IMG/VR virus record: IMGVR_UViG_3300036768_001265
Location: 1 to 41,936 of that record
Length of the DNA stretch: 41,936 bases
Source: a virus
Direction: 5' to 3' (one strand)
Shown: piece after piece, positions 7,211 through 37,915 of the stretch
Position numbering within the stretch: the stretch's first letter is position 1
Layout: each line of letters starts with the position of its first letter
Made by a program: the position numbers and the translations under genes
The notes under the pieces: generated by a model
Told to the model about the DNA's origin: nothing
What the model saw: only the letters and a program-made list of their open reading frames with translations
Databases searched by the model: none

Positions 7211-7240
7211 TTCATTATTACGAAAAATCATAAGGATTAA
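7211..7240. repeat. Dyad element copy A
   Basis: Arms TTCATTATTACGA and TCATAAGGATTAA flank AAAA. It is one of seven 30-bp copies in the window and the most diverged on its right arm. It sits three bases after the GC terminator hairpin and overlaps the last codons (NPYDFS) of the HNH gene. It lies where two arms converge, so it is upstream of no gene, which argues against a purely promoter-type role for the family. Confidence 0.75.
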
Positions 7241-7634
7241 ATATCAATCCGAGTCTTTCTTGTTCTCTTCGCTGCCAGTCAATTTCTTTGAAACGTGTCC
7301 AATCGGATTTGTGTTTGTTATTCTCTGAAATTGTTGCCCATCGAAGATTGTCACGCCGATTGTCAAGCCCGTTTCCGTTGATATGATGAGGGACATATTT
7401 TGGCCCTGGCGGCGGAGATATGCGCAGCATAACTGCGCGATGAAGGTAGAGTCCAATACGGTTGTTAAAAGCGCATATTTGACGGCGCGCGTAAGCTCTT
7501 CCGCGTTGGTCTCTGTGAAGTTGCCATTGGTCACAACGTAAATCCTCGTCCTCAACGGAGATTAACGTAATAAACCCTTTTCCAAGCATTATATAACTTG
7601 GGCGGTCCCAATCAATCTCCCTGGGGTCAAACAT
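7218..7634 (-). CDS. HNH endonuclease (homing type)
   Basis: This 138-residue protein has the HNH_3 signature near its C-terminus: an LHRAVM segment, then VPHHINGNGLDNRRDNL and RWATISENN, which form the His-Asn-His metal site that cuts DNA. The start chosen is the ATG at 7634, with GGGGA upstream; a TTG two codons earlier is possible. It overlaps the end of the helicase gene slightly and is the last gene of the early arm. Free-standing HNH genes of this kind are usually mobile and invade phage genomes. Its stop codon lies inside dyad element A. Confidence 0.88.
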   Translation of the reverse strand: MFDPREIDWDRPSYIMLGKGFITLISVEDEDLRCDQWQLHRDQRGRAYARRQICAFNNRIGLYLHRAVMLRISPPPGPKYVPHHINGNGLDNRRDNLRWATISENNKHKSDWTRFKEIDWQRREQERLGLIFNPYDFS

Positions 7635-8883
7635 CGTCAATCCCCGTTCGCGTCATCACAGGAATAAACGCCCTGCCTCGGCTAGTAGGCTGGACGGTGC
7701 AGAGCCCGGAAGAGACGAGTTCTTGCAACGCGGCGTCAACGTATTGTGGCGGCACATCAGCCATAAGTTTCCTCCTGATACGATGCTCAATGATTGGCTC
7801 TCGGTTGACCCCGTATTCGATTTTGAGCCATTTGTGGATGTTGTTCAGAGCAGAAAGTAGCGGGTTCTGGCCGAGGTGTTCAAACACGAGCGGAAGCATA
7901 GACTCCGCCTCGAGCAGCGTTTGTCGCGCACGTTCAACGTGGTCGGTGTTTATGATGAGGTTATTGCTCTCTGCTACAGAATAGACCATGCAAAGTTTGA
8001 GCCAATGGATCGATCGGCGCGGGTTATACTCGGCGAACCGGGTGTCCGCAGGCATCGGCGGCATTCCCTCCGATACCCAAGATTGCAGGATCTTAGCAGC
8101 ATCCGGCGTAACTTTAAACCTGCCGTGGAGCGCGTAGATAGATTTGAGATCCGAAATAAGGTGCGTATAGTCCGGCTCATCCTCGACGCCAAACAGGTCT
8201 ATGGCCTTCACATCTTCGGAGTATACGAAATTAAGCCGGGCGGTGAAGCCCATGCCGATCGCGGTCTCGCCCCAGTTTGCCTGTATGCTTTTGGGTGTGA
8301 TGCCTCCGACGATGGTCAGGAACAGGTTCTCAATGACTTGCTCTCCGCGGGACAAAGTTTCGTAACGCCAGATTTTCGGACAGTCAAAAAAGTCGGTCAG
8401 GTCGGTCATGATTGAGTAATCTCTGTGGCGGATGAAAGTGGACAGCTCGTCAAGGAAGCAGGCATACGCAGTTTGCGTAATAAGCGCTCCGGAAGCGTCC
8501 GTGGAAACCTTAGTTGATGACGCCAGGTTGTCGATGAGTTTTTCCCTGGTAAGGGAATTGGGAGAAAGACGAAAATCTTTGAGTGTAGAAAGCAACTCTC
8601 TTCCGATGCGAAGCGCACGAGTCTTTCCCACGCCCGGCGGGCCGACGAGGACGACGTAGAAGTTAGCAAAAAGAGGCTCCCCTTGGATCAGCAAATAACA
8701 TCGTCGCTGTAAAGCGGCTCCTATTGTGGCAATTGCTGTCCATTTGCGGAAGATCTCAGGGCTATTTGAATGGCTGGTTGATGAGAGAAACTCGTCGATC
8801 CAGTGGCGACCGCTCCGGCGGTGGGGTTCTTGGGTCGTGGCCTGTCCAATCGGAAAGGCCGTAGTGATTTTCGATTGAGCCAT
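7627..8883 (-). CDS. DUF3987-like replicative helicase/primase-associated ATPase
   Basis: This 418-residue P-loop ATPase has Walker A GPPGVGKT at residues 81-88, a Walker-B-like LDE in ACFLDELSTFI, and an N-terminal WTAIATIGAALQRR segment like the DUF3987 family often encoded beside phage polymerases. It probably unwinds DNA or loads onto forks during phage replication. The first 121 bases overlap the 3' end of the polymerase gene in another frame; the ATG at 8883 is used because no good later start precedes the conserved WIDEF segment. I found no separate primase, so this protein may carry that task or the phage may use host DnaG. Confidence 0.75.
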   Translation of the reverse strand: MAQSKITTAFPIGQATTQEPHRRSGRHWIDEFLSSTSHSNSPEIFRKWTAIATIGAALQRRCYLLIQGEPLFANFYVVLVGPPGVGKTRALRIGRELLSTLKDFRLSPNSLTREKLIDNLASSTKVSTDASGALITQTAYACFLDELSTFIRHRDYSIMTDLTDFFDCPKIWRYETLSRGEQVIENLFLTIVGGITPKSIQANWGETAIGMGFTARLNFVYSEDVKAIDLFGVEDEPDYTHLISDLKSIYALHGRFKVTPDAAKILQSWVSEGMPPMPADTRFAEYNPRRSIHWLKLCMVYSVAESNNLIINTDHVERARQTLLEAESMLPLVFEHLGQNPLLSALNNIHKWLKIEYGVNREPIIEHRIRRKLMADVPPQYVDAALQELVSSGLCTVQPTSRGRAFIPVMTRTGIDDV

Positions 8884-10306
8884 CTTTGTTAACCCGCCTC
8901 TTCCCCCAATTCCAGCCGGACACGGCGTCAGACCTGATCACTACCGGCATATTGTTGATTTTTATCTCAACGGCTAATAGCCGTTGAATATCGGAGATTA
9001 ACTTAGCCTCGTCCTCAACCTTCGGGTCAAATTGAAGTAAGATGGAGTCGTGAACCTGCGCTAAGATTTCGACGCGGCCGGATAGTTCGAGTTCCCGCCA
9101 CACAAGATACAGGCCGTAGTTGAGGTAGTCGCCGATGACGGATTGCGGCTCATACGCGATCGCCTCTTTGATAACGGAAGAGTCCGTGGGGCGGCCGGGG
9201 AAAAATCTCTTGCGGCCAAGAGCGGTGGTAATGGTCCGGGTTGACGCGAGTTGTTGCATGACACGGGCGTGCCAGCGGCGGATGCCGGGGAATTCCTTGA
9301 AATAACGATTTTGAAAGTCTTCAGCAACCTTGCGCTCGATCTTTAGATGCGCTTGGAGAACCGGCGGGGTGCCGCCGTAGTTGGAGCCGTGCCCGCCACG
9401 TTTAGCGAGATCTCGGTAAGAAAAATCCCGGTAGTATTTTTGTTCTGCGATGGCTCGGTTGGTCTTTTTGTCGGTAGTCCAGGGAAGGTCCGGCCAGCAC
9501 ATCGTGCAAACGTAAGTATGCGGATCACCGGACATGCAAGCACGCTGGTAATTTTCATCGCCGGAAACATAGGCCACGACGACGGACTCCGCCTGGGCCA
9601 AGTCAAATTGAAGAAACTTTTTTCCAGGGTCTGGGATAATGATCCGCCTGAGTTTATCCGTGATATTTTGAAGATTTGTCCCTCTGTGAAACACATTGTC
9701 CGAGGACGACCAACGGCCAGTCTCGGTTCCAGTGACGTGATAACTGCACCGCAAGCGCCCATCCGGGTCGACCCCTGTGCGCAACGTCGCGAGTTTCTTC
9801 TCGACATCGCGAAGAGCCAGGATGAGTGTCGCGAATGGCCTGGCGCGCGGGTAGGTAAGGAGTTTTTCCATCGCCTCGCGGTTGGTAGTGACTACTTGCT
9901 CGCGCTTGATCTTGTCATAGCGCTGGATTGGTGGGATGCGCAGGACAGAGTAGAAAAAGTTTTTAAGTTGATCCGGCGATCGGTGGTTCAGCGGATAGCC
10001 AAGAATTGATGAAGTAAGCCTGGAAAGGAAATTGGAATAACGATCCGCTTCGATCGAAAGGCTGTGGATTGCCTCATCCCTGGCGTGGAAATCCACGCGC
10101 AGGCCGCGTAGCATCATCGCGAGAGCCGGGGCCTGCATCGTGCGAGACATGTCGTAGGCGAAGCCGCCGTCGAACTGTGAAAGTGCCTCATGCACTTCGT
10201 AAGTAATGCAATTGTCGAGGGCGTTGTAAATCCAAAGGGACTCGTCGTAGTGGGTGCCCGCGGCACCGTTGTGGGGGAGTTCATCTGAATAGAGGATTTT
10301 AGCCAT
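8762..10306 (-). CDS. Family-A DNA polymerase, polymerase half (split gene)
   Basis: This 514-residue protein starts at the ATG at 10306 after GAGGAAAG. It has the Pol I polymerase motifs in order: TETGRWSSS near 194-202, motif A with Asp235 (FLQFDLAQAES), motif B Arg298/Lys302/Tyr310 (RDLAKRGGHGSNYG) and motif C His419-Asp420 (QVHDSILLQ). At the N-terminus YNALD (27-31) fits the Exo III motif Y-x3-D of the proofreading domain, but the rest of that domain is absent and lies in the gene at 11158-12252. The polymerase is therefore split inside the exonuclease domain, with three small genes between the halves. It copies the phage genome. Confidence 0.9.
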   Translation of the reverse strand: MAKILYSDELPHNGAAGTHYDESLWIYNALDNCITYEVHEALSQFDGGFAYDMSRTMQAPALAMMLRGLRVDFHARDEAIHSLSIEADRYSNFLSRLTSSILGYPLNHRSPDQLKNFFYSVLRIPPIQRYDKIKREQVVTTNREAMEKLLTYPRARPFATLILALRDVEKKLATLRTGVDPDGRLRCSYHVTGTETGRWSSSDNVFHRGTNLQNITDKLRRIIIPDPGKKFLQFDLAQAESVVVAYVSGDENYQRACMSGDPHTYVCTMCWPDLPWTTDKKTNRAIAEQKYYRDFSYRDLAKRGGHGSNYGGTPPVLQAHLKIERKVAEDFQNRYFKEFPGIRRWHARVMQQLASTRTITTALGRKRFFPGRPTDSSVIKEAIAYEPQSVIGDYLNYGLYLVWRELELSGRVEILAQVHDSILLQFDPKVEDEAKLISDIQRLLAVEIKINNMPVVIRSDAVSGWNWGKRRVNKDGSIENHYGLSDWTGHDPRTPPPERSPLDRRVSLINQPFK

Positions 10307-10640
10307 AGATTTTTCTTTCCTCGATCCGAACCCCATGCATTCCAGCCCATTGTCGAGCAAGTTTCATGCCTGCCGACATTCCGTGGTCTATGTAAAACGC
10401 GACGAGCTGTGCGTAATGCATAATCATAGCACGGTTGATTTCGAGTCCCTCTGCGCGTTGGTCCTCATCCTCTTCGTAAAGAGCTCGCGTGTGGGCAAGC
10501 ATTGCGTGTGATGCCCAGGGGATTTCTCCCCTGGACAGTGAGTCGCGAATGCATTGACGAAGGTAGTTTGTCGCCTTCTCGCCAGCGCCGAGCCCCGCCC
10601 ACGGCGACTCAATCACCACAAGTCGCGGCTTAACCAGCAT
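10299..10640 (-). CDS. Nucleoside 2-deoxyribosyltransferase-like protein (DUF4406/DUF7768 type)
   Basis: This 113-residue protein starts at the ATG at 10640, inside the end of the MazG-like gene. The pattern VVIESPWAG at the N-terminus, a Tyr/Cys helix, IPWASHAMLAHTRAL and YIDHGMSAGM resembles small phage proteins with the nucleoside deoxyribosyltransferase-like Rossmann fold that occur in nucleotide-metabolism clusters. The enzyme function is inferred from this pattern only. Its tail overlaps the ribosome site and start of the polymerase gene, and it is one of three small genes filling the gap between the two polymerase halves. Confidence 0.6.
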   Translation of the reverse strand: MLVKPRLVVIESPWAGLGAGEKATNYLRQCIRDSLSRGEIPWASHAMLAHTRALYEEDEDQRAEGLEINRAMIMHYAQLVAFYIDHGMSAGMKLARQWAGMHGVRIEERKIYG

Positions 10641-10992
10641 TGAGGTGACGCCCGATATCAGGCGGAGTCCAGCCGTCGGGTTTGAGGATCTTGCCGTCCT
10701 CACGCCGACGCACTTGGCCAGTGGCGGGATCGATCTTGGCCATGTTTGACGCATGCACCTCATCCCACAGCGCCGCGAGCGGCCATCCACGGGAATGAGC
10801 GTAGCCTATCAGGACTACGATGAGATCGATCACGGCATCCGCCTCGTTGAACGGGGAGGACGCCGTAGTGAATTCTTTGTATTCCTCGTCAATCAGTTTG
10901 CGATAAAGCAGAGCCTGTTCGTGATTGACCTCACCCACAGTCTGCCCGCACGCGAGCATGAACTGCGCCTGATCCTTGAACGGGTTACTCAT
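10630..10992 (-). CDS. MazG-like nucleotide pyrophosphohydrolase
   Basis: This 120-residue protein starts at the ATG at 10992 (MSNPFKDQ) after GAGGAAA. The helical pattern EQALLYRKLIDEEYKEF followed by NEADAVIDLIVVLIGYAHS has the E-x2-E...E-x2-D metal-ligand spacing of the all-alpha NTP pyrophosphatase superfamily, and the tail DGKILKPDGWTPPDI is typical of phage members. Such enzymes hydrolyse (d)NTPs or alarmones to monophosphate and pyrophosphate, to clean or rebalance nucleotide pools. It lies in the gap between the polymerase halves and overlaps both neighbours. Confidence 0.8.
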   Translation of the reverse strand: MSNPFKDQAQFMLACGQTVGEVNHEQALLYRKLIDEEYKEFTTASSPFNEADAVIDLIVVLIGYAHSRGWPLAALWDEVHASNMAKIDPATGQVRRREDGKILKPDGWTPPDIGRHLNAG

Positions 10993-11161
10993 CGTTGTTT
11001 TCCTCAATAACCGGGCCGGTAACCCTCCACACAATGCAATCATCGGTGGAGTCTACAGGTTCAAACTCTACTTCCAGGTCCAAAAGAAGTTCTTCAATAG
11101 CGAACACAACATCGGTGAAATTATAATCGAAGTTATCCGGAATTTCCACCACGACTTTCAT
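10985..11161 (-). CDS. Small acidic protein (58 aa)
   Basis: The ATG at 11161 overlaps the stop of the UDG-exonuclease gene (ATGA) and is preceded by AGAGGGAAG. The product begins MKVVVEIPDNFDYNF, ends VIEENNDE and is strongly acidic (about 17 Asp/Glu against two basic residues). I do not recognise it. Coupling to the exonuclease half of the split polymerase and its position in the gap suggest a replication-linked role, perhaps a small partner protein, but that is inference. Confidence 0.7.
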   Translation of the reverse strand: MKVVVEIPDNFDYNFTDVVFAIEELLLDLEVEFEPVDSTDDCIVWRVTGPVIEENNDE

Positions 11162-12252
11162 GCTTCCCTCTTCTCCTCTCCACCTCGCGGCCTGTATTTC
11201 TTCCAGGCTCGTTCGTTCGCATAAAGGCTTCCCAAGAAGTCGAGCCCCTTGGGAAGTCCGGGGTAAAGACTGTGATGCTTGATCATCGTGTCATGGACGA
11301 ACCTCCTCATCGGCCAGCGATAATGCAGAAAATACTGCAAATCATACAATCCATTCTGCAAGATTTTTTCAACATCCGACGCGAGGATATCCCGGCATAC
11401 CTGCCAAGCGAACCGCTCGCTCGCGTGGTCCGGCCAATAATGATTGCCTGGTTTTCTCCTATCCCAGAACGGGATGACGTAAGCCTCATCCGGCGACGGC
11501 GAAAATCCCACACATGTGATCTGGCCAGCCTTTGTCTCGCAGTCAACCGCCAGGGCCGAAGCAGAAATCAAACGTTCCCGCCATTGGACAAGGTCTTCAA
11601 TTGTCGGCTCAAGATACAACGCGCGCCGACGCAGGCGAAGTTCTGGAAAAGTTGACTCCGCCTTCGCTTTCATCAGGTCAGCGACAGTGATTGCGCGAAG
11701 TTCATATTGACGTAGAACCGCAGCAGGGTGATACGTGCCAATGACTTTGGCATTTGGATAGAGCGTTGAAAGATAAAGGGTGCCGCGGGTCTTTCCGATG
11801 CCGCTGGCTCCCGTAAGGGCGGACATCGCCACGTTGCCAAGAGCGACAATGATGTTGGGCTTGACTTGGGTGATTTCGTGGTAAAGCCTTTCCCGCGCGG
11901 GCTGGACGAATTCCGGCTTGATGTAAAGTTTGTTGTAAGGGATCAGGGCGAAAAATTGATTTGTGGGGATAGCCTCTCTGCGCGAAACGCACCAGGAAGT
12001 GAGGTCGTTGTCCGGAGGCCTGACGTCAAACACGTTGGTAATCGCGCAAGAGGCGCGGGAAATTCCCGCGTCCTCCAGCATGGAATTCAACTCTTGCCCG
12101 GCGGCACCTGCGAACGGGACTCCAAGTTTTTCTTCCATCGCGCCTGGCGCTTCACCGACCAGGAGGATGTTGGCCGGTCGAAGCAGCCCTTTCACGCGTT
12201 TCGCACTCGAAGGCAATGGCAAGGTAGGCAGCGCCGTCGATGTAGTTGTCAC
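11158..12252 (-). CDS. Uracil-DNA glycosylase domain fused to 3'-5' exonuclease domain (first half of split polymerase)
   Basis: The GTG at 12252 follows GGAGG with good spacing (364 aa). Residues about 30-185 are a family-4-like uracil-DNA glycosylase: GEAPG (33-37), VPFAGAAGQ, TNVFDVRPP and HPAAVLR (175-181). The N-terminal CxxC of Fe-S family-4 enzymes is not visible. Residues about 230-364 are the start of a Pol I proofreading domain: DCET (237-240, Exo I), NGLYD (300-304, Exo II), then HDTMIKHHSLYPGLPKGLDF. The chain ends before Exo III, which is on the downstream polymerase gene. UDG-exonuclease-polymerase order is known as one chain in SPO1-type polymerases; here it is broken. It overlaps the upstream gene by about 100 bases. 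Confidence 0.85.
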   Translation of the reverse strand: MTTTSTALPTLPLPSSAKRVKGLLRPANILLVGEAPGAMEEKLGVPFAGAAGQELNSMLEDAGISRASCAITNVFDVRPPDNDLTSWCVSRREAIPTNQFFALIPYNKLYIKPEFVQPARERLYHEITQVKPNIIVALGNVAMSALTGASGIGKTRGTLYLSTLYPNAKVIGTYHPAAVLRQYELRAITVADLMKAKAESTFPELRLRRRALYLEPTIEDLVQWRERLISASALAVDCETKAGQITCVGFSPSPDEAYVIPFWDRRKPGNHYWPDHASERFAWQVCRDILASDVEKILQNGLYDLQYFLHYRWPMRRFVHDTMIKHHSLYPGLPKGLDFLGSLYANERAWKKYRPRGGEEKREA

Positions 12253-12472
12253 GATGGAACCTCCCAACAGCGATGCGCGCAAGTTTGGTCAGGGCTTGCA
12301 TGATGGCAGCGTCGTGAGCCACCGATTTCTCTTCAAGTTTGCCTGACCATTTTGCATACCACGAAAGAAGTTCGCCAAAGGCCTGATGATTGACAAGGCA
12401 GTCCCCGTAGGTCTCGTTGCGGTCAACCGAGGTCAGCTCCGCCGCCGTTTGCAGCACTTCTAACCGCGGCAC
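12152..12472 (-). CDS. DUF6378-like phage protein
   Basis: The GTG at 12472 is chosen because the product then reads VPRLEVLQTAAELT and DRNETYGD, the usual start of this family; an upstream frame is open to 12604 but overlaps the methyltransferase further. The later AIMQALTKLARIAVGR and DNYIDGAAYLAIAFE are the conserved helices. Members are common in phage replication clusters; the function is unknown, and a MazG-like helical fold has been suggested for similar sequences. No clear ribosome site is visible, so the start is uncertain. It overlaps both neighbours. Confidence 0.7.
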   Translation of the reverse strand: MPRLEVLQTAAELTSVDRNETYGDCLVNHQAFGELLSWYAKWSGKLEEKSVAHDAAIMQALTKLARIAVGRFHRDNYIDGAAYLAIAFECETRERAASTGQHPPGR

Positions 12473-13742
12473 AGCGTTTGTTTGTGCACTCGACGTATTT
12501 TTCGTTGACGTCAAGGCCGACAACACGGCTTGCACCGAGTCGGAGCGCCGCTTCAAGGGCAGTTCCTGATCCACAGGTAGGGTCGAGAAGTTCGGTGTAT
12601 TCATCCGTCAACATCTCCAAAAAGTGGGTGACGACTGCGAGCGGTTTCTCGCTAAGATGATGCTCTTTCGTAGTCGGCGCGGAGACCGACGCCGCCTTAA
12701 CTCGATTGATCGGCCGGTCCCCGCGCGTTGCGAAAATAGCGATCTCATACGTGCGCCGCGGCTGCCGACGCACGTCCGGCGCGATACCGACGTTGTCGGA
12801 CTTATGCCAGATGAGCGGCACCTCGCATACGGTCCAATTGTAATAGCGGAAACGGGAAAAAATCTTGCCGACGTTCTTGTGTGCTAGCCAGAAGATGCAA
12901 TGCGCGGAGTCGGCGATAAAGCGATCCTGGTTGTCGAAAAAGGCCCGGACAAGAGCGTCGAAGAGTTCCGGCCGGTCGTCGTAGAGATTGTCGGTGATAC
13001 GCCAACTGGCGGAGGAATTTTGAAGGTTCTCCACGTGCATACCAAGGCCGTAAGGGAAGTCGCAGTGGATGAGATTGAAGCGGCGACCTGAATAAGACGG
13101 TGCCCAGTCAAGGAATGATTGCTGGAAGGCAAATGTTTGGACCGGCTTCGGCTCGGACTTTACAATGGCTGGAGCAGCGTTTTCGACCACGATATCGTCA
13201 ATGGAAGCGATAACGTCTTCCATGATTGCTTCTTGCTGCTTCTTTTGCAGCGATGCTAGCAAGTCATACGCTGCTTTCCACGAAGACGCTTCGCGCAGAC
13301 GAGGCTCTGTCGAAAGCGCAGGAGCCAGCGTCAGCATGTGCGACAATGAGGAAGGATGGATTTGAAGGTCTTCAGCAATCTCGCGTTGGGAGCGGTTTGT
13401 CAACGACGCAAATCTCGCAACGGCCTCGACGTATTCCGGCCAATTCAGATCCTTGCGCCGGACATTCTCCTCAAGTTCGATAAGTTCTTGCTCATCCCTT
13501 GGAAGGTCAGAAAGTTCCACCGCGAGGATTTCTTCGCGCCCGAGATGTTGCATAGCGCGCAACCTGCGGCCGCCGGCAAGCAAACGCCAGCCTGTCTCCG
13601 TGCGGGAGACGACGACAGGCTGAAGTTGACCAAGTCGCTTGATCGACGCAGCGAGGGCTGTGATGTCGCCGTAGTCGCTGCGTTGGCGATCGGGAGCGAC
13701 CTCGATTGAGGAAATTGGAATGAGCATGGGCGGTCTTTTCAT
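12423..13742 (-). CDS. ParB-like domain fused to DNA N6-adenine/N4-cytosine methyltransferase
   Basis: This 439-residue protein has an N-terminal ParB/Srx-type domain (residues about 5-145: IPISSIEVAPDRQR, LAGGRRLRAMQ, EENVRRKDLNWPEY, then an HTH-like segment QREIAEDLQIHPSSLSHML). The C-terminal half is a methyltransferase with DFPYG (228-232) as catalytic motif IV and DPTCGSGT (387-394) as the SAM-binding motif I; IV before I is the beta-class order. It probably methylates phage DNA, either against host restriction or as an epigenetic signal. The ATG at 13742 lies inside dyad element B and has no obvious Shine-Dalgarno. ParB-methyltransferase fusions are known from phages and mobile elements. 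Confidence 0.85.
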   Translation of the reverse strand: MKRPPMLIPISSIEVAPDRQRSDYGDITALAASIKRLGQLQPVVVSRTETGWRLLAGGRRLRAMQHLGREEILAVELSDLPRDEQELIELEENVRRKDLNWPEYVEAVARFASLTNRSQREIAEDLQIHPSSLSHMLTLAPALSTEPRLREASSWKAAYDLLASLQKKQQEAIMEDVIASIDDIVVENAAPAIVKSEPKPVQTFAFQQSFLDWAPSYSGRRFNLIHCDFPYGLGMHVENLQNSSASWRITDNLYDDRPELFDALVRAFFDNQDRFIADSAHCIFWLAHKNVGKIFSRFRYYNWTVCEVPLIWHKSDNVGIAPDVRRQPRRTYEIAIFATRGDRPINRVKAASVSAPTTKEHHLSEKPLAVVTHFLEMLTDEYTELLDPTCGSGTALEAALRLGASRVVGLDVNEKYVECTNKRCAAVRSAANGGGADLG

Positions 13743-13767
13743 GTATACGATTTTTCGTAAAGATGAA
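13738..13767. repeat. Dyad element copy B
   Basis: Arms TTCATGTATACGA and TCGTAAAGATGAA flank TTTT. On the - strand it directly follows a GC terminator hairpin and contains the start codon of the ParB-methyltransferase gene in one arm, so a bound protein or a folded RNA arm could block translation or transcription of that gene. Confidence 0.85.
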
Positions 13768-13768
13768 T

Positions 13769-13787
13769 GGGGGGCACGAGGCCCCCC
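13769..13787 (-). terminator. GC hairpin terminator after the ssDNA-binding-like gene
   Basis: GGGGGGC, loop ACGAG and GCCCCCC form a 7-bp stem eight bases beyond the stop of the gene at 13795-14229. On the - strand it is followed by ATTCATCTTTACG, the start of dyad element B, the same hairpin-then-element order as at 7191-7240. Confidence 0.75.
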
Positions 13788-13794
13788 ACCCACA

Positions 13795-14229: not shown

Positions 14230-14252
14230 GTCAGTCTCCTGTGTGGGTGTTA

Positions 14253-14327
14253 TGCGAGCGGCCGGATTCGAACCGGCAGTTGGAGAGATTTTAAGTCTCT
14301 TGCGTTTACCTATTTCGCCACGCTCGC
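14253..14327 (-). tRNA. tRNA-Leu (anticodon UAA) with unusually short variable region
   Basis: The - strand folds as a cloverleaf: acceptor GCGAGCG/CGCTCGC, D stem GCG/CGC with AGG in the loop, anticodon stem AGAGA/TCTCT with loop CTTAAAA (anticodon TAA), and T stem GCCGG/CCGGC with loop TTCGAAT. The discriminator is A and CCA is not encoded. Between anticodon and T stems there are only six bases (CCAACT), whereas bacterial tRNA-Leu normally has a long variable arm. It starts directly after the stop codon of the Sak4-like gene, so it must be cut from the early mRNA. It would read UUA/UUG codons, and UUA is visibly common in the late genes. Confidence 0.9.
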
Positions 14328-15128: not shown

Positions 15129-15129
15129 G

Positions 15130-16106: not shown

Positions 16107-16300
16107 TAGACGTCATCCAGAAGTTTGGAAAGATCTGGGTCAACAGGCTTTCGCGGTGCGCGTTTGCCAGCCGCTTCCGCCAGGAGAAAGTTTTCCCGCT
16201 CCTTGCGGAAATGCGCGATCAAGGCGTCTATGTCCTCATCTGTGAATTCCTCCGCCTTTTTGTTGATGATGATTTCGAGTGCTTCCGGGTCAAGGTGCAT
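16106..16300 (-). CDS. Small conserved phage protein (64 aa)
   Basis: The ATG at 16300 (MHLDPEALEIII) has GGAG seven bases upstream. The protein is helical and charged (FTDEDIDALIAHFRKEREN), resembling small proteins often found beside Cas4/Sak4 modules in phages. It is stop-start coupled to the nuclease gene. The function is not known. Confidence 0.7.
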   Translation of the reverse strand: MHLDPEALEIIINKKAEEFTDEDIDALIAHFRKERENFLLAEAAGKRAPRKPVDPDLSKLLDDV

Positions 16301-16484
16301 CGGGCGACTCCACAATGTGAAGTAACTCGTCGTCTACATCACGAGCTTGAACCTTCGCCAGGTAGGCCTTGATCAGGGCTCTGACGATCTTGCTCATCCC
16401 GCGCGATGTTGAGCCGAGCAACTTCAACTTGCGGTAATCCTCTGCCTCGATATACACCACTAACTGCTGGGTGTTGTTTGGCAA
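16290..16484 (-). CDS. Ribbon-helix-helix-like small protein (64 aa)
   Basis: The pattern QQLVVYIEAEDYRKLKLLG followed by SKIVRALIKAYL looks like the beta-strand and two helices of CopG/Arc-type (RHH) DNA-binding proteins, which bind inverted repeats as dimers. The start is a TTG at 16484 with GGAG about ten bases upstream. It overlaps the last 146 bases of the gene at 16339-16656 in another frame. If it binds DNA, it is a candidate regulator for the dyad elements, but nothing in the sequence proves that link. Confidence 0.55.
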   Translation of the reverse strand: MPNNTQQLVVYIEAEDYRKLKLLGSTSRGMSKIVRALIKAYLAKVQARDVDDELLHIVESPDAP

Positions 16485-18999: not shown

Positions 19000-19236
19000 T
19001 TAATGTTGCTCTTGGATTGCTTCATCCAGGATTGTGTCGATATTCGGGGAGATCTTTTTGATCTCTGCGAGTGTGGTCGGCGTGTCGTTGAGGTAAACGC
19101 CCACGGGCTCCCATTCGAGAAAAGTCTGGCTGGCATCGCGCGGGCCATTCCGCTCCGTGTAAAGATGCCAGGTGTAATCGCAGGTTATTGTCTTGCCTGC
19201 GACGTTGACAGAAACTGATGAAAATCCGCGCGGCAT
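19000..19236 (-). CDS. Hypothetical protein (78 aa)
   Basis: The ATG at 19236 has AAGGAG seven bases upstream. It is the first gene after dyad element C and its promoter. The sequence (MPRGFSSVSVNVAGKTITCD...) is beta-rich at the N-terminus with a helical acidic tail. I do not recognise it. Confidence 0.65.
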   Translation of the reverse strand: MPRGFSSVSVNVAGKTITCDYTWHLYTERNGPRDASQTFLEWEPVGVYLNDTPTTLAEIKKISPNIDTILDEAIQEQH

Positions 19237-19256: not shown

Positions 19257-19286
19257 TTCATGGTTACGAATATTTGTAATCATGAA
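19257..19286. repeat. Dyad element copy C, over the -10 box of a promoter
   Basis: Arms TTCATGGTTACGA and TTGTAATCATGAA flank ATAT. The right arm includes the -10 box of the promoter at 19279-19307 and the element extends across the expected start point, a classic repressor-operator position. It lies 20 bases upstream of the start codon at 19236. Confidence 0.85.
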
Positions 19287-20935: not shown

Positions 20936-21124
20936 TTACGCCTCGGACTGATGGTTTCCGAAAGCCCTGTTAAGGGCTTTCGCTAGCGCGGGACCGCTCC
21001 TTGAATTCTCCGGCAGGAAAATGCTTACCACGCCGGAGCTGGTTTCGATCGCGATCCAGGCTGTCGGACCGCTGGAATGCGCGGAGGCGATCGGCTTGTC
21101 GGAGGTGTAGATGTAGATTTCCAT
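20936..21124 (-). CDS. Hypothetical protein (62 aa)
   Basis: The ATG overlaps the stop of the Csx16-like gene (TGATG). The sequence MEIYIYTSDKPIASAHSSG followed by beta-type residues and a short helix (GPALAKALNRAFGN) is not recognised. Its stop lies one base before the helicase start, so the Csx16-like gene, this gene and the helicase are probably translated as a coupled set. Confidence 0.6.
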   Translation of the reverse strand: MEIYIYTSDKPIASAHSSGPTAWIAIETSSGVVSIFLPENSRSGPALAKALNRAFGNHQSEA

Positions 21125-21411
21125 CAGTTGATTTCCTCCACGTGGAATTCGGAGAGTTCCATGTTGCGGCTAAGGTAGCCGTAGGTGAGCGACGTCGGGT
21201 CCGACGCGCGAGGAATGATCACGTGCTGGTAGTGGTGCCCGGAGCGGCAGATGAACGCTGCCACCGGGACGGGCAGGTTCCCGATGATTGTGGAGCGGGG
21301 CGGAAGATCGCGGAGGATTTCCGGTCGGAAAAAGTCGTAGAACCGGTCCACCTTGACTCTGTCTTCGATAGCCGCCCTGACGGCCTCGTGGCGAGAAATC
21401 ACGATGTTCAT
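21124..21411 (-). CDS. Csx16 (VVA1548)-like protein, possible CRISPR type III ring nuclease / anti-CRISPR
   Basis: This 95-residue protein begins MNIVISRHEAVRAAIEDR. It has ISRH (5-8), Asp22 (KVDRF), IIGNLPVPVAAFICRSG (42-58), YQHVIIP (61-67) and a final YLSRNMELSEFHVEE. These match in order and spacing the pattern I recall for Csx16/VVA1548: N-terminal SRH, a mid-chain (V/I)IG-LPV-AA-C-G segment, then a strand and a C-terminal LS...V segment. Members of this family occur in type III CRISPR loci and have been reported to cleave cyclic oligoadenylate. In a phage it could switch off that alarm. The homology call is by eye. It lies in the early operon, as expected for a defence blocker. Confidence 0.5.
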   Translation of the reverse strand: MNIVISRHEAVRAAIEDRVKVDRFYDFFRPEILRDLPPRSTIIGNLPVPVAAFICRSGHHYQHVIIPRASDPTSLTYGYLSRNMELSEFHVEEIN

Positions 21412-21414
21412 TGG

Positions 21415-21753
21415 TCAGTTCCTCGTGATGTGATGAATTTCTTCAGCGCCCGGATTCCACGCATTGGGATCATCCGGAAGATTGCTGATGTAAGTCATGA
21501 CCTTGGCGATTGTGTCGGGGCTCACCCATCCGAGCACCGTGTCGCCAGTCGGCCATTTGACCATTGGCTCGTCGCGGTGCCAAACAGCGATTTCCGCGTT
21601 CGGCGTGGCCTTCGCGAGGCGCGGCTTTTCGATAAACGGAAAGCCGCGCTTGTCGTGGTAGTTGTAAAGTCCGGTCTGGACGCTGATCGTCCAGCCATTG
21701 GCGAAGGTCATGGTGAAGCCCTGGAAGGGGTGCTTGCGCGAGATGGTGATCAT
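21415..21753 (-). CDS. Conserved phage protein of unknown function (112 aa)
   Basis: The ATG overlaps the upstream TAA (TAATG) and has GAGG before it. The segment FTMTFANGWTISVQTGLYNY and the later NAEIAVWHRD, TGDTVLGWVSPDTIAKVM follow a pattern I know from many small phage proteins of unassigned function. It probably forms a small beta-rich fold. Overlap with the next upstream gene suggests coupled translation. Confidence 0.7.
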   Translation of the reverse strand: MITISRKHPFQGFTMTFANGWTISVQTGLYNYHDKRGFPFIEKPRLAKATPNAEIAVWHRDEPMVKWPTGDTVLGWVSPDTIAKVMTYISNLPDDPNAWNPGAEEIHHITRN

Positions 21754-22349
21754 TAGATTTCCTCGATAAGGCGGGCGAGCTCTTCCTGCTCGCGAATGAT
21801 CTTCGCGCGGAAGGCGGGATCGTTCGGGTCAGCGCCGCGCTTCCGGGCCGCAGCGCGGATGATAGCCTCCATCGGGTCTTTTTTCTGCTTCTGCGGCATG
21901 GCCAGGTCCTTGGCCATCTGCGCGTGCTCTTCTGCGGTGGCTGGTGGGAAGCGGCGCCAAGCCTCGCGTTTTGACCCGCCTTTTCTGATGAAGTATGCGC
22001 GCAATTCTGCGCGTGAGGCGGGGTTGAGTCGTCGTGCGTGCCAACGGTCAGCTTTGATTGTTGGCGCCTGCGCGGCTGGGACTGGGGCGAGGCCACTTGC
22101 CCAGGCTAGGCTGTCATGGTGGATGATTGTAATCATCCCTCCATGCTTCGCATGGAGGTGAATGGTGGTGAGGTTGTTGGAGGCTTTCTCCGCGAGGGAG
22201 AGCCTCCTAAGCCTCGCGTTGTAAACCTCCACGAGAGAGGTTATCTGGTGAAGTAAGTTGCGAGCCTCGGTGCCCCGCGAATAATGAGGCACCGACTCGG
22301 TCCCGGGCGGCTTGCAGATGATCCGCCAGCCTTTTTGGATCGTATCCAT
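21753..22349 (-). CDS. Hypothetical protein (198 aa), first gene after dyad D promoter
   Basis: The start at 22349 has GGAGG upstream, 32 bases below a strong promoter -10. The product is basic and helical at the C-terminus (REAWRRFPPATAEEHAQMAK, IIREQEELARLIEEI). An internal ATG (MITIIHHDS) follows a tight hairpin, CCTCCATG-CTTCG-CATGGAGG at 22138-22158, and could be a second start. I do not recognise the family. The coding sequence contains several such perfect inverted repeats. Confidence 0.6.
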   Translation of the reverse strand: MDTIQKGWRIICKPPGTESVPHYSRGTEARNLLHQITSLVEVYNARLRRLSLAEKASNNLTTIHLHAKHGGMITIIHHDSLAWASGLAPVPAAQAPTIKADRWHARRLNPASRAELRAYFIRKGGSKREAWRRFPPATAEEHAQMAKDLAMPQKQKKDPMEAIIRAAARKRGADPNDPAFRAKIIREQEELARLIEEI

Positions 22350-22416: not shown

Positions 22417-22446
22417 TTCATGGCTATGAATATTCGTAAGGATGAA
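22417..22446. repeat. Dyad element copy D
   Basis: Arms TTCATGGCTATGA and TCGTAAGGATGAA flank ATAT. It lies just upstream of the -35 box of the promoter at 22381-22409, a position suited to an activator or to a repressor that blocks polymerase access. Confidence 0.85.
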
Positions 22447-25421: not shown

Positions 25422-25451
25422 TTCATCCTTACGAATTTTCACATCCATGAA
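25422..25451. repeat. Dyad element copy E
   Basis: Arms TTCATCCTTACGA and TCACATCCATGAA flank ATTT. The inner right arm is diverged. It lies about 38 bases upstream of the rightward promoter that opens the late arm. Confidence 0.75.
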
Positions 25452-25547: not shown

Positions 25548-26378
25548 ATGTCTACGTTGGCTGAGCAAATTGTGCTTTCTTCCGGGGCGACGACGCACCG
25601 CCTGGACGAACATCTGCGTGTCCCGGCGAGCATGGTCGTAGGCACGATCCCAAAGGTTGGGGAGCGGGTGGAGTCGGAGTTGATCTCGGTCCGGCCGCTC
25701 GCGGAAAGTGAGGCGGCGGCGATCGCGATGGCGGCGGTCGGGGCGAAGCCGCGCGGGCCGGTTAACCTGACGGACTCCATCAGAATTCGGCATCATGCTA
25801 TTGCGAGGTTGATGGCGGCGGGAAGGAAGAAGGCGGAAATTGCGAGGATTATGGATGTTTCTGTGTCGACGCTGTCGCAGCTGGAACGGTCCCCGGCGTT
25901 TCAGGCGCTCATGCTTGAATACATGAACATGATGGATAGGGAGTCGATTGAGTCTTATACCCGGCTGAAGATCATTGGTAATCTTGGCATGGATGAATTG
26001 ACGCGGCGGCTCACGGAGCAGCCGATGACGATTAAGACTTCGGAGGTGATTGAAATTGTCAAGACGTCGGCGGACCGCACGGGGCTCGGACCGACGACAA
26101 GGCAGGTGACGTTAAATGGTCGCATTTCGCCAAATGACCTGCGCGCCATCAAGGCCGCTCAAAACACGATTACGGCGGAGTATTCCGTCGAAGATCAGCC
26201 TGGTGGAGATAGTGCCGCCCCCGCCGTGGGCGGAGAATACGAGGATGACGAGGCTGCAGAAGGAGGGGAAACGGTTCGAGAGGACGTTGGCACGGTGGCT
26301 GGCGAAGCAGACGCGGACGGAAGTCTTATCGGGGATCTGGGTGAGATACTTGGATCAACACGGGGAGGGCTTCGCTAG
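25548..26378 (+). CDS. HTH DNA-binding protein, putative small terminase subunit
   Basis: This 276-residue protein has an HTH-like segment at about residues 80-110 (HHAIARLMAAGRKKAEIARI, DVSVSTLSQLERS), followed by helices (ESYTRLKIIGNLGMDELTRR) and a very acidic C-terminal tail. This layout, DNA-binding HTH then oligomerisation helices then acidic tail, fits small terminases that recognise packaging sites. It is the first late gene and lies 4 kb before terL, so a transcription regulator that binds the dyad elements is a fair alternative. Its last 134 bases overlap the nuclease gene. Confidence 0.55.
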   Translation: MSTLAEQIVLSSGATTHRLDEHLRVPASMVVGTIPKVGERVESELISVRPLAESEAAAIAMAAVGAKPRGPVNLTDSIRIRHHAIARLMAAGRKKAEIARIMDVSVSTLSQLERSPAFQALMLEYMNMMDRESIESYTRLKIIGNLGMDELTRRLTEQPMTIKTSEVIEIVKTSADRTGLGPTTRQVTLNGRISPNDLRAIKAAQNTITAEYSVEDQPGGDSAAPAVGGEYEDDEAAEGGETVREDVGTVAGEADADGSLIGDLGEILGSTRGGLR

Positions 26379-29640: not shown

Positions 29641-29972
29641 GCGGAATGATGGATCCTGGGATGTTTATGCAGATTCTGCAGGCGCTGGGTGGGACGTCGC
29701 CAGTGATTGGTGTTAGTAACCCGGTCACGGCGGATCCAAGCGTGGCGCAGCCGCCACCGCTTGACCCGCAGGCGAAGATTGTGGCGCAGGGCGGGCAGAA
29801 GACTGGCGGGTTCCCGATTAACGCAGCGACGCTTGCTGCGCTGGGTGCGATAAACGCTGGCCTGCAGGCCGGGCGGCCGGGACCAGCGCCGATGGCGGGG
29901 ACTCCGCATGTGGCCACGCGAGCGCCGGGTGGGTTTAGCCCTGTGTATAACAGGCTGCCCGGGCGGGGTTAA
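29637..29972 (+). CDS. Small Pro/Gly/Ala-rich protein (111 aa)
   Basis: The ATG at 29637 has GGAGGGG upstream and overlaps the Rz1 stop. The protein is low in complexity (PPPLDPQAKIVAQGGQKTGG, GLQAGRPGPAPMAGTPH), probably unfolded. Such proteins next to terminase genes are often minor virion or packaging parts; I do not recognise a family. Its stop lies at the edge of dyad element F. Confidence 0.55.
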   Translation: MSGMMDPGMFMQILQALGGTSPVIGVSNPVTADPSVAQPPPLDPQAKIVAQGGQKTGGFPINAATLAALGAINAGLQAGRPGPAPMAGTPHVATRAPGGFSPVYNRLPGRG

Positions 29973-29998
29973 TGATTGTGAATATTCGTAATGATGAA
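29969..29998. repeat. Dyad element copy F
   Basis: Arms TTAATGATTGTGA and TCGTAATGATGAA flank ATAT. The left arm is partly degenerate and contains the stop codon of the preceding gene. It lies about 40 bases before terL, in the only gap of that part of the late arm. Confidence 0.75.
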
Positions 29999-30039
29999 TA
30001 GCGGTTGTTGAGCCGAGAACTATTGGGCGCGCCATCGCA

Positions 30040-31653
30040 ATGATGACTGCGGAGCAAAGACTTGCGCATTTGATATCGCTTCCGGTCTCCGCGCTGACGG
30101 ACGACGATGTGAAGTTCCTTGTTAAGGAGTGTTGGGAGGATCCGGTATTCTTTTGTAAGTATTTCCTGCCACATTTGTTTCCGCAGCGTATTCCGTGGTT
30201 GCATCGTGGAGCGTGGGCGGTGCTGACCGGGAAGACGAAATTTCTTGAGAGGTATGGAGAGATTGATAAGATTGTTGATAATTTTACGTATGAGCGGAAT
30301 GGAACGCATAGCATCTTCGAGCGGACTGATAAGGGACTTGTTCTTAAGCGGCAGCCGTATACGTTAATGATCTGGCCTCGCGGGTTTAGCAAGACTACGC
30401 TAGCGGGCGTGGCGTTTAATATCTACAACGTGGTGTTTCAAGAGCTGCCAATGGCGCTTTACGTCTCCGCGACGGGACGGCATGCGGAAGCGCAGTTAGA
30501 GAATATTAAACGGGAGCTGGAGTCGAACGAACGGATCATTGCGATTTTTGGACAATTAAAGCCTGGCCGGCAGGAGGCCGAGCGGTGGCGCGTTGACATG
30601 TTTGAGACGACTACTGGAATGACCATGGTCGCGCGCGGTAGTGGCGGGCAGGTTCGAGGGTTGAACCACCGTGGGCAGCGGCCGAAGATTGTTATCGTTG
30701 ACGACCTGGAAGATCGGGATAGTGTGGCTACGCCGGAGCAGCGGGAAAAACTGCGTAAGTGGGCGTATGCGGATTTGATCCCGGTGCTGCCGAAGATGGA
30801 TCCAGACGCGTCGATGATTGCGCTGGGGACGTTGTTGCATCCGGACTCGTTGATGATGACTTGGGCGTCGGATCCTCGGTGGACGGTGATGAAGTTTGGG
30901 GCTCGGGACAAGCAAGGGGATCTGGTTTGGCCGGAGAATATGGATGAGGAAAAGTTAAGACTGGAAGAAGAGTCAGCGATTGTCTCGAACACGCTTAGTG
31001 AATTTTATATGGAGCGTTTTAGCGAGATTAGACTTGACAAGGATCGAGATTTTCGCACGGATCAATTTCAGTATAGATCGCCCGACCCGGGTGAGGTGAA
31101 GTTTATCAGCCTGTATCAGGACCCGGCGATTTCAAAGCGGGAACAGGCGGACCGCTGCACGTTCACGGTTGTTGGGATGAGTGACAAGGGGTGGCTTTAT
31201 GTGTTGGACCAGGTTGGACGGCGCGGGATGAGCCCGCGGGAACAGATTGACACGCTGTTTGAGTTGTGGAATAAGTGGAAGCCACACCGTGTAGGGATTG
31301 AGGCGAATGGGTATCAGGCGGCGCTTGTGCATCTTGTGCAGGAGGAGATGTTTAGGAAGAAGAGTTATTTTGAAATCACGCCGGTCACTAACACGAAGAA
31401 GAAGTTTGAGAGGATAAAGGGTATTTTGCAGCCGAGGTTCGCGGCGAAGTATGTGTATTTCGCGTCGAGGTGGCCGGAGCTGGAAAGCGAGTTGTTGAAT
31501 TTTCCGATGTCGAAGCATGATGACTTTGCTGATGGGTTGGCGGGCGCGGTAAGTTTGCTTGATGATGGCGCGTTTTTAGCGGATAGTGGGACGGAATCGG
31601 AGGTTGTGCCGCTGAGGGATGTGATTGGCGGAGACTGGCGCTATGCGGTATAA
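30040..31653 (+). CDS. terL: Large terminase subunit (T7-like TerL)
   Basis: This 537-residue protein has a Walker A variant WPRGFSKTT (112-120), Walker B IVIVDDLED, and a C-terminal RNase-H-fold nuclease (YQDPAISKREQADRCTF, GIEANGYQAAL, HDDFADGLAGA). It pumps DNA into the head and cuts it; the T7-type sequence suggests packaging of unit-length, possibly terminally redundant DNA, although the open fibre gene at both window ends also fits headful permutation. The ATG at 30040 has no clear ribosome site. Its length is close to T7 gp19 (586 aa). Confidence 0.92.
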   Translation: MMTAEQRLAHLISLPVSALTDDDVKFLVKECWEDPVFFCKYFLPHLFPQRIPWLHRGAWAVLTGKTKFLERYGEIDKIVDNFTYERNGTHSIFERTDKGLVLKRQPYTLMIWPRGFSKTTLAGVAFNIYNVVFQELPMALYVSATGRHAEAQLENIKRELESNERIIAIFGQLKPGRQEAERWRVDMFETTTGMTMVARGSGGQVRGLNHRGQRPKIVIVDDLEDRDSVATPEQREKLRKWAYADLIPVLPKMDPDASMIALGTLLHPDSLMMTWASDPRWTVMKFGARDKQGDLVWPENMDEEKLRLEEESAIVSNTLSEFYMERFSEIRLDKDRDFRTDQFQYRSPDPGEVKFISLYQDPAISKREQADRCTFTVVGMSDKGWLYVLDQVGRRGMSPREQIDTLFELWNKWKPHRVGIEANGYQAALVHLVQEEMFRKKSYFEITPVTNTKKKFERIKGILQPRFAAKYVYFASRWPELESELLNFPMSKHDDFADGLAGAVSLLDDGAFLADSGTESEVVPLRDVIGGDWRYAV

Positions 31654-31912
31654 TCCGCTTCCAGGCATGGACTGGATACAGGCACTGGCAAATCAGGGCA
31701 CATGGAGGCCGCCGCCGGAATGGGCGCAAGACTATCCGTGGATTAGTCAGTTGCCACAGCCGTTGACGAGAACGCCGGCTGGTAGGGTGATTGAGCCTCC
31801 ACTAGGGCAACGGTCAAGGGAGGTAGGGCCTGAGTGGTGGTTGCAGCCTCCGGCTGTGGAATGGACTGATATTCCGGATTGGTTGCAAGCGTTGAACATG
31901 AGTCGTGAGTAG
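31643..31912 (+). CDS. Small Trp/Pro-rich protein (89 aa)
   Basis: The ATG at 31643 overlaps the end of terL and has GGAG upstream. The product is rich in Trp and Pro (PPPEWAQDYPWISQLPQPLT, WTDIPDWLQALN). No family is recognised; its position between terL and portal suggests a small morphogenesis or virion protein. Confidence 0.55.
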   Translation: MRYNPLPGMDWIQALANQGTWRPPPEWAQDYPWISQLPQPLTRTPAGRVIEPPLGQRSREVGPEWWLQPPAVEWTDIPDWLQALNMSRE

Positions 31913-31980
31913 ATTGCGCGGTAAGCGAGTTGGGATCGGCCATGCTGGAACTTAATCTAGATAATATTCGCGGAGGTGCG

Positions 31981-33099: not shown

Positions 33100-33100
33100 A

Positions 33101-35541: not shown

Positions 35542-35815
35542 TCTTGATGTAAGATTGTGGCTACGTAGTATTTTGCGGGAAGAAATTGAACCACTGGACA
35601 AGGACGGAAAGGCGGAGCTGGCGCAGGTTTTGAAAGGTCCGTTGATGAAACCTGTGTGGGCGGCCTTGGCAGAGCGGATTGAAGTTATGAAGGATCGTGC
35701 GATGTCTTTGGAATTGACAAAGCCAGAAGAACTTGATACATTACGCGCGATCCAGGCGGAGACTCGCGGCATCATTGTGGTGCTGGAGACCATGTGGGAG
35801 ATGACTAATGAGTGA
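35531..35815 (+). CDS. Hypothetical head-cluster protein (94 aa)
   Basis: The ATG at 35531 overlaps the end of the portal gene and has GGGAG upstream. The product is helical and charged (REEIEPLDKDGKAELAQVLK, LDTLRAIQAETRGIIVVLET). Its place between portal and scaffold suggests a head-assembly factor; no family is recognised. Confidence 0.65.
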   Translation: MPDNLDVRLWLRSILREEIEPLDKDGKAELAQVLKGPLMKPVWAALAERIEVMKDRAMSLELTKPEELDTLRAIQAETRGIIVVLETMWEMTNE

Positions 35816-36668
35816 AGCGCAGGCGACCTCGGCTACGGAAACGCCGGTTGACGTTAATGGGGTCAACAAGGAGATTGCTGATATTATGAATTTTGATCCG
35901 TTCAAGACGGATCAAGAGCCTGCACAGGAGAAGCCTGCGGAGGCGGCTCCTGCACCTGAGCAGACGCCTGCGCCGGCGCCAGCGGATAATCCGCCGGAGG
36001 CGCCGAAGGTGGACCCGCTGCAGCAGACGCTTGGTGCGCTGCAGCAGACTGTGCAGGAACTGCCCCGCGCAGTGGCGGATGCGGTGAAGCCGCAGACTCA
36101 GGCTCAGCCGGAGCCGGATGCGTGGGCTCCGATGGTTGACGGGCAGCCTTTGAACTATGTGCAGGTTATGTCGCAGATCCCGGATGCGGTGCTGAACGGG
36201 TTGATTAGTGAGAACCCGGTGGAGCGGAAGGCTGCGGTTAGCAATCTGCTTGGGGTTGCGATGCATGTGGCGCACAGACTGGCTACTAAGCAGGCGGTTG
36301 AGCAGGTGCGCAATGAAATGACACGTGTGCTGCCGCTGTTTGTGCAGGACCAGATCCGCACTCACAATGCGATGCAGACCGTGTTTAATGATTTTTATGG
36401 GAAGTTCCCCGCTCTTTCGCATCCGTCTTTGCGCCCCGTGGTGCAGGCGGAAGCGCAGAAACTTTCTCAGCAGCTTGGAGTGCGTGAGTGGACCCCTGAG
36501 TTCCGGGACCGGCTTGGCGAGCATGTCATGAACATGCTGCGCGGAGTTGTTCCCGCGACGGTTCAAACACAGCAGCCGGCAGCACCGATGGTGGGACCGA
36601 CGGCGAGGCCAATGACGGCAACTGGTCCTAATAACCTGCAGCAAGAAATTGCTGATCTTTTATTCTGA
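35808..36668 (+). CDS. Scaffolding protein
   Basis: This 286-residue protein has an acidic, Pro/Ala/Glu-rich, probably unfolded N-terminal third (EKPAEAAPAPEQTPAPAPAD) and a helical C-terminal part with a short Gln-rich end. Composition and position directly before the major capsid gene are typical of internal scaffolds that shape the procapsid and then leave. Confidence 0.8.
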   Translation: MSEAQATSATETPVDVNGVNKEIADIMNFDPFKTDQEPAQEKPAEAAPAPEQTPAPAPADNPPEAPKVDPLQQTLGALQQTVQELPRAVADAVKPQTQAQPEPDAWAPMVDGQPLNYVQVMSQIPDAVLNGLISENPVERKAAVSNLLGVAMHVAHRLATKQAVEQVRNEMTRVLPLFVQDQIRTHNAMQTVFNDFYGKFPALSHPSLRPVVQAEAQKLSQQLGVREWTPEFRDRLGEHVMNMLRGVVPATVQTQQPAAPMVGPTARPMTATGPNNLQQEIADLLF

Positions 36669-36678
36669 GGGTTAGGTC

Positions 36679-37869
36679 ATGGCTATTCAGGGTCTGAGGC
36701 ACACTGGTAACTTCGCGACGGATGCTCGTCCGAAGAATTGGCGCGAGGGCATCCTCCGGCTTTATCCGAACGGTATGGCCCCGCTTACGGGTCTTACCTC
36801 TATGATGAAGGAAAGGGCGGTGGATGACCCGGAGTTTAGTTGGTGGGAAAAGGCGCTGCAGACGCAGCGAATGGAACTGAGCGCAAATCTTGGCGTGGCC
36901 GGTAACCTGACTGTGGTCAGCGGTGCGCTGCAACTTAAGGCCGGTCATGTGCTCCGGATTGAGCACACGGGCGAGATTGTGCGAGTCTCGTCCAACCCGA
37001 CCGTGGATACGGTTGTGCCAGTTACTCGTGGTTTTGCTGGCACGACCGCGGCAACTGTGACTGTGGCAAGCGAAAACCCGTTTGTCCACGTCATGGGAAC
37101 GGCGTATGAGGAAGGTTCTTCGGCGCCGACTGGGATCAACTTTGACCCGGTGAAAAAGTATAACTACACGCAGATCTTCCGCGATACGCTGGAAATGACC
37201 CGCACCGCGTCCAAGACTCGCCTTCGCACGGGGGATGAGGTCAAGGAAGCGAAGCGGGAATGCCTTGAGAATCATTCGATCCAGATCGAAATGGCGTTTT
37301 TCTGGGGGCGGCGGTCGGAGAGCACGCTTAACGGAAAGCCTATTCGCACGACGGGTGGGGTGATCTCGTTTATTGACAGTGCTAATGTTGTGAATAATGC
37401 GGGCGGCTCCTTTAACATGACTACGTTAGAGGGCTGGCTCAAGCGCATCTTCGATTACGGTTCTTCGGAGAAGGTGGCGTTTCTTGGTAATCGGGCACTG
37501 TTAGCGATTAACCAGTGCATTCGGAAGAATACCGCGTTCCAGATTACGTCTGGGATCAAGGAATTCGGAATGAATGTGTCGCGACTGATTTGCCCGTTTG
37601 GTGAGTTGGTGCTTAAGACGCACCCGCTCTTCAATCAGATTTCCTCTGATACCTACAATACCGCTGACTCTTCGATGGTGGTGCTGGACATGGCGAATGT
37701 CCAGTATGTGTATCTGAATGGTTCCGACACTAAGTATCAGTCGGACCTGCAGGAGAATGGCCTGGATGGCATGAAGTCGGGGTATCTGACGGAATGCGGC
37801 ATTGAGGTGCATCATCCGCTGACGCATTTTATGATTAATGGAATGCGGACTGGCGTGGCGGATACGTAA
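36679..37869 (+). CDS. Major capsid protein (DUF5309/SU10-like)
   Basis: This 396-residue protein has GAGG and AGG upstream. The start MAIQGLRHTGNF and the segments MMKERAVDDPEFSWWEKAL, KYNYTQIFRDTLEMTRTA and AFFWGRRSES match the SU10-type major capsid group with an HK97 fold. It builds the head shell. It ends a block; a gap with dyad element G follows. Confidence 0.88.
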   Translation: MAIQGLRHTGNFATDARPKNWREGILRLYPNGMAPLTGLTSMMKERAVDDPEFSWWEKALQTQRMELSANLGVAGNLTVVSGALQLKAGHVLRIEHTGEIVRVSSNPTVDTVVPVTRGFAGTTAATVTVASENPFVHVMGTAYEEGSSAPTGINFDPVKKYNYTQIFRDTLEMTRTASKTRLRTGDEVKEAKRECLENHSIQIEMAFFWGRRSESTLNGKPIRTTGGVISFIDSANVVNNAGGSFNMTTLEGWLKRIFDYGSSEKVAFLGNRALLAINQCIRKNTAFQITSGIKEFGMNVSRLICPFGELVLKTHPLFNQISSDTYNTADSSMVVLDMANVQYVYLNGSDTKYQSDLQENGLDGMKSGYLTECGIEVHHPLTHFMINGMRTGVADT

Positions 37870-37885
37870 TACTGGGTTAGTGGGG

Positions 37886-37915
37886 TTCATGGATACGATT
37901 TTTCGTATCCATGAA
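37886..37915. repeat. Dyad element copy G, perfect palindrome
   Basis: TTCATGGATACGA and TCGTATCCATGAA flank TTTT: all 13 base pairs match, the best copy in the window. It lies alone in the 66-base gap between the capsid gene and the neck gene, with no clear -35/-10 boxes nearby. Confidence 0.9.

Follow-up and report, generated by a model that had tools for sequence, protein, structure and literature searches.

Introduction

ParB and Noc proteins nucleate at palindromic sites, undergo CTP clamp closure and spread (PMC8429893), and their specificity can be switched by a few residues (PMC7383237). In Bacillus subtilis, about 70 Noc-binding sites (NBS) are scattered round the chromosome (PMC4331003). 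Fusions of the ParB-CTPase fold to an N6_N4 methyltransferase have also been described; the part of PMC12704722 that deals with them presents these proteins as orphan and frequent in phages, gives no role for them there, and reports ATP instead of CTP as the ligand of some bacterial ParB-methyltransferase fusions. The stoperators of Cluster A mycobacteriophages are short (13 bp), asymmetric and monomer-bound (PMC6550527, PMC9283540). The ESAS elements of Cluster K phages are imperfect inverted repeats upstream of some start codons with a consensus that varies by subcluster; these 17-bp inverted repeats are linked to a 13-bp SAS by a variable spacer (PMC3203893).

We analysed a virus record of 41,936 bases from IMG/VR, called the window throughout, which carries seven dispersed 30-bp dyads. 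Like NBS and parS, the dyads are palindromic with independently conserved half-sites, and a protein with a ParB fold and a helix-turn-helix (HTH) is encoded in the same genome. Unlike the sites of Noc and chromosomal ParB, which are 16 bp long, the dyads measure 30 bp in the window and 25-31 bp in its relatives. They also differ from the Noc system in recurring at even intervals of 3-5 kb along a phage genome, in having a sequence private to each phage, and in having as candidate binder a ParB protein fused to a methyltransferase, for which binding is predicted. This protein has the same domain combination as the phage fusions of PMC12704722; the part of that source concerned with them describes no DNA sites, and a candidate cognate array is proposed here.

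The many sites in gene gaps across a phage genome and the drift of the motif between relatives resemble Cluster A stoperators, but the dyads are not 13-bp asymmetric sites and, being symmetric, have no orientation that follows transcription. With the ESAS they share inverted repeats that often lie ahead of start codons. No second conserved, SAS-like element was found beside the dyads, and unlike the ESAS their spacing is constant within a genome and copies also occur at gene ends and inside genes. New here is a symmetric, evenly spaced, genome-specific array that recurs across a phage group.

Results

Seven dyads in the window

Among the direct repeats of the window, the dyads form the highest-ranking family. 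Each contains the half-site TTCATnnnTACGA twice, around a 4-bp A/T centre. With a symmetric matrix the seven copies scored 40.6-47.4 and the next best position of the window 2.5; 30 Markov simulations of the window served as background and gave a top score of 10.1. Leave-one-out matrices scored 36-43 per copy. The scan recovered all seven copies that the initial annotation had reported, with copy G as a perfect palindrome, and found no further ones in the window.

Dyad A, 7211..7240: convergent late/early border; GC hairpin (7191-7210) directly before it; overlaps the end of an open reading frame
Dyad B, 13738..13767: 12 bp upstream of the ATG (13726) of the ParB-methyltransferase gene; a GC hairpin (about 13769-13787) adjoins
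Dyad C, 19257..19286: 20 bp ahead of a minus-strand start codon (ATG at 19236)
Dyad D, 22417..22446: 67 bp ahead of the start codon (ATG, 22349) of the gene 21753-22349 (minus strand)
Dyad E, 25422..25451: divergent early/late region
Dyad F, 29969..29998: overlaps a stop codon at the end of an open reading frame; the large terminase gene begins 41 bp downstream, at 30040
Dyad G, 37886..37915: perfectly palindromic, with the major capsid gene on one side and on the other the next gene, whose ATG (37936) follows after 20 bp

Only A and E lie at strand-switch borders, whereas B, C, D, F and G occupy gaps within codirectional runs. Several dyads precede start codons within operons by 12-41 bp, and at C and G a Shine-Dalgarno sequence is located between the dyad and the start codon. 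Dyad D adjoins a promoter-like TTGACA-N17-TATACA, read by eye. From the contexts of the seven copies it follows that most dyads mark operon gaps, not module borders; the earlier placement of the whole set at module borders thus holds for A and E. The GC-rich hairpins AGGGGGCCTCAAGGCCCCCT (7191-7210) and GGGGGGCACGAGGCCCCCC (about 13769-13787) directly adjoin dyads A and B, and each touches its dyad from the same relative side, an arrangement in which the T-rich edge of the dyad resembles a terminator tail.

The gene content of the window is of the podophage type, with portal, major capsid, large terminase and ejection-type proteins together with a family-A polymerase, primase/helicase, Sak4, exonuclease and helicase. 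By capsid and terminase, the closest named relative is Caulobacter phage Kuura; Vibrio phage VS-ABTNL-3 and Pseudomonas phage PaP2 are more distant. The DNA polymerase (8762-12282, minus strand) seems to be split, since the frames 11158-12282 and 8762-10360 match successive parts of PHROG 17, and a MazG-like and a deoxyribosyltransferase-like gene lie between them. The early module contains a tRNA-Leu (anticodon TAA) at 14253-14327 on the minus strand; the annotation of EBPR podovirus 3 likewise includes a tRNA-Leu(TAA). A 95-aa protein at 21124-21411 (minus strand) matches Cas_VVA1548 weakly, with an E-value of 0.0014 that misses the cut-off.

The two arms vary independently

The dyads had been proposed as RNA-processing sites among other roles, and at the RNA level they could act as terminators, RNase III sites or 5'-UTR stabilising hairpins. 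Copy G could form a strong stem, and a GC hairpin adjoins both A and B. Compensatory arm-to-arm changes, which define RNA hairpin elements, were not observed. In the window and four relatives, Watson-Crick pairs at variable dyad positions did not exceed the permutation expectation in any of the five families (P of reaching the observed pairing 0.72, 0.99, 0.99, 0.91 and 0.87). The half-sites were conserved separately, as would be expected if a symmetric protein reads the site, and the variable positions were unpaired and free. Since the two arms vary independently, we take the dyads to be read as DNA by a symmetric protein and not to work as RNA hairpins. A hairpin function was rejected for this lack of arm covariation and any action at the RNA level is highly improbable, while we predict with high confidence that the dyads are protein-binding DNA sites. 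This supports the part of the initial annotation that saw phage-specific control sites and leaves the RNA-processing sites without support.

Dyad arrays in related phages

Relatives were defined by their capsid protein, and their arrays were found by a search for repeated palindromes. About 20 of the 41 related podophage-type genomes carry a dyad array of their own, with a sequence specific to each genome and mostly 25-31 bp in 3-17 copies. Examples are:

G004: GCCTAGGTCAAAAAGTGTCCTAGGC, 13 copies
G011: AACTATGTTCATTTATTTAACATAGTT, 10 copies
G024 and G022: AGTTYGTTTAA-type, 16-17 copies
Desulfofustis phage OP947158: GCTATGTCCCAAATTGGGACATAGC, 9 copies
G045: CCCCGGGGAAT-type, 5 copies
G002: GTAATACAATT-type, 4 copies

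A wider search returned weaker families in G005, G018, G032 and G047. The matrix scores of the relatives' arrays were far above the best simulated scores, and the Markov controls of the finder were almost always empty. Nothing was returned from T7 and lambda; in the positive control, mycobacteriophage Jabith, the finder returned repeats near the parA/parB genes. We did not count the apparent repeat families of G010, G033, G041 and Mel-JY34, which resemble chance repeats of GC-rich coding sequence, and the array of G014 was not confirmed by a stricter finder.

The pattern of the window itself was absent from all other contigs of the viral contig collection, and a terminase-based query found no close relative with the window's dyad sequence. 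G001, the closest capsid relative, had no dyads by three methods. Related phages thus give a divided answer as to such an element: many have arrays of their own sequence and others, including G001, have none.

The layout recurs where the sequence differs. Like the window, many relatives have a dyad at the convergent junction of late and early genes, and G004, G011 and G022 also match the window in having one between the capsid gene and the gene after it. In G004, G011, G022 and G024 (L081-L082, L100-L107), copies also lie inside giant genes of 5-6 kb, which argues that the site is retained there despite the coding constraint. A mobile element or MITE is disfavoured because the flanks differ and the dyad alone is conserved. 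In G023 (L144-L146) each arm of the dyad CTATATAATGTGCA...CACCATATAA includes a TATAAT-like box, and this dyad may serve as a promoter element as well. Aeromonas phage P5 (L209), which has no ParB-methyltransferase, contains three wide palindromes TCAAGGG...CCCTTGA at 5009, 38015 and 45122; these contain nested hairpins and look like terminators.

The phage might also borrow a host regulator whose sites the dyads are, the more so as the phage-encoded binder is so far only a candidate. In the bacterial genome collection, two isolated single matches to the pattern were found, which is about chance level, and the sequence differs from one related phage to the next. With the pattern practically absent from bacterial genomes, a host operator was rejected and a borrowed regulator appears quite unlikely.

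Spacing along the genome

The dyads follow one another at intervals of about 3-5 kb. The coefficient of variation (CV) of the spacing was 0.34 in the window, 0.37 in G004, 0.43 in G011, 0.42 in G022, 0.46 in G024 and 0.43 in the Desulfofustis phage, compared with null means of 0.73-1.09 when an equal number of sites was placed in random gene gaps. The spacing was more even than chance in all six genomes tested (P <0.0002 to 0.024; window P=0.02), with a combined P of about 2e-12 when the six are treated as independent. No other observation points as strongly to a genome-wide role as this even spacing, and we consider such a role somewhat more probable than a purely local one.

The initial annotation had likened the layout to stoperators, repressor sites that halt elongation between genes. 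What stands of this comparison is the distribution: the dyads occupy gene gaps genome-wide, beside stop codons and shortly before ribosome-binding sites, and the motif varies among relatives as it does in Cluster A phages (PMC6550527). The dyads are, however, symmetric, unoriented and evenly spaced. The stoperators of Jabith, located with a published-type consensus, are clustered (CV 1.11, P 0.88) and their orientation follows transcription. Moreover, no integrase or recognised repressor was found among the window proteins that were scanned against PHROG and Pfam, many of which had no function call. Roadblocks of the stoperator kind are therefore an unlikely explanation of the dyads.

Candidate binding proteins

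Three binders had been suggested from the window. The HTH protein at 25548-26378 is improbable, as it is small-terminase-like (PHROG 2538), and the following two remain:

12423..13726, minus strand: ParB-fold/HTH/N6_N4 methyltransferase fusion (PHROG and Pfam), the leading candidate binder
16290..16484, minus strand: P0001, 64-aa ribbon-helix-helix (RHH)-like protein (RHH_1 E=1, below the curated cut-off)

Residues 2-174 of the ParB-methyltransferase match ParB, Spo0J and Noc structures, the Noc alignment spanning residues 13-174. The nucleotide-pocket motifs GxRRxxA and ENxxR are kept as GGRRLRA and ENVRRKDL, and an HTH is also present. The catalytic motif of the methyltransferase reads DFPY in the window, G001, G002 and the Desulfofustis phage and DPPY in most others. 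The protein was found in 30 of the 36 genomes of the set and accompanies every dyad genome but one, a fragment in which the polymerase region is missing too. None of nine genomes without the ParB-methyltransferase, including four added later as an out-of-sample check, had a convincing dyad array. The association gave a Fisher P of 0.02 by the strict count and 0.003 counting wide-spaced families, and it is confounded by descent because the genomes without the protein are also the more distant phages.

We then compared divergences among 24 relatives. Given polymerase distance, the divergence of the dyads tracked that of the ParB N-domain (partial Mantel 0.33, P 0.001) and of the HTH region (0.22, P 0.024), but not that of the methyltransferase domain (-0.04). 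The recognition-helix sequence DHK is common to two phages with CTATGGGGA half-sites and absent from the others. A residue-level covariation scan of the candidates against the half-sites did not single out the HTH, as columns of the polymerase and the RHH protein scored as high. The ParB-methyltransferase of G001 is the closest to that of the window (E=3e-90), yet G001 has no detectable dyads, and the same is true of about ten other genomes with the protein. Within the window, only dyad B adjoins the gene.

The same dispersed array could instead be bound by a small RHH repressor, P0001 in the window and another family of 77-84 aa in the relatives. Such a repressor would probably bind as a pair of dimers per dyad, block transcription genome-wide and repress its own gene. 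The 77-84 aa protein is encoded at about 42-43 loci, of which about 30, including most of the long ones, have a detectable 25-bp array with a nearly uniform density of 0.2-0.4 dyads per kb. At nine loci the start of this protein is preceded by a dyad at a distance of 0-36 bp. RHH distance correlated with dyad distance (Mantel 0.43, P 0.0005), and P0001, like the dyads, is absent from G001. In the first set of relatives the 77-84 aa protein was confined to dyad-bearing members of one subclade. This family seemed decisive initially and failed once polymerase distance was controlled, the correlation falling to 0.08 (P 0.18). It is missing from most dyad genomes of the capsid-defined group and from the window, where P0001 is unrelated to it. 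No recognisable homolog of P0001 was seen in the relatives or found by P0001 queries, and its RHH match is far below cut-off. The AlphaFold models of both RHH candidates were of low confidence and were left out of the fold searches. Ordinary operators would also not predict the even spacing.

In view of the non-specific residue-level scan and the dyad-less G001, we regard the ParB-methyltransferase as a tentative candidate for the dyad-binding protein, at rather less than even odds; an RHH protein in this role is possible but doubtful.

Discussion

The dyads of the window and the arrays of its relatives suggest a genome-wide docking system for a not previously described phage protein. We put it near an even chance that the dyads are a dispersed palindromic array which loads a symmetric phage-encoded protein along the genome, with the ParB-methyltransferase as its most likely binder. 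An array of fairly regular sites, mostly in gene gaps, would allow a protein to be loaded along the whole genome in a manner resembling Noc and parS. The ParB-methyltransferase may dock on a dyad via its HTH, close on a nucleotide and then spread by sliding into the flanking DNA, carrying the methyltransferase with it. With sites every 3-5 kb, such a methyltransferase-bearing clamp could reach the entire genome, where its output might be methylation or silencing. The location of dyad B before the ParB-methyltransferase gene would permit autoregulation. That the dyads are the loading sites of a ParB-family clamp-methyltransferase fusion which patrols the whole phage genome and modifies or coats it is a more speculative proposal, and we hold it to be rather unlikely in this full form.

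Were the clamp proposal true, it would describe a parS-like system for genome-wide modification or protection, not segregation, whose sequence is re-specialised in each phage. If the dyads are sites of the ParB-methyltransferase, the role of the phage fusions would become directly testable, and ParB-type DNA loading would serve something besides segregation. Whatever the binder, the constant layout with its changing sequence is a natural series of protein-DNA co-evolution, for which about 30 sets of site and protein are at hand for testing.
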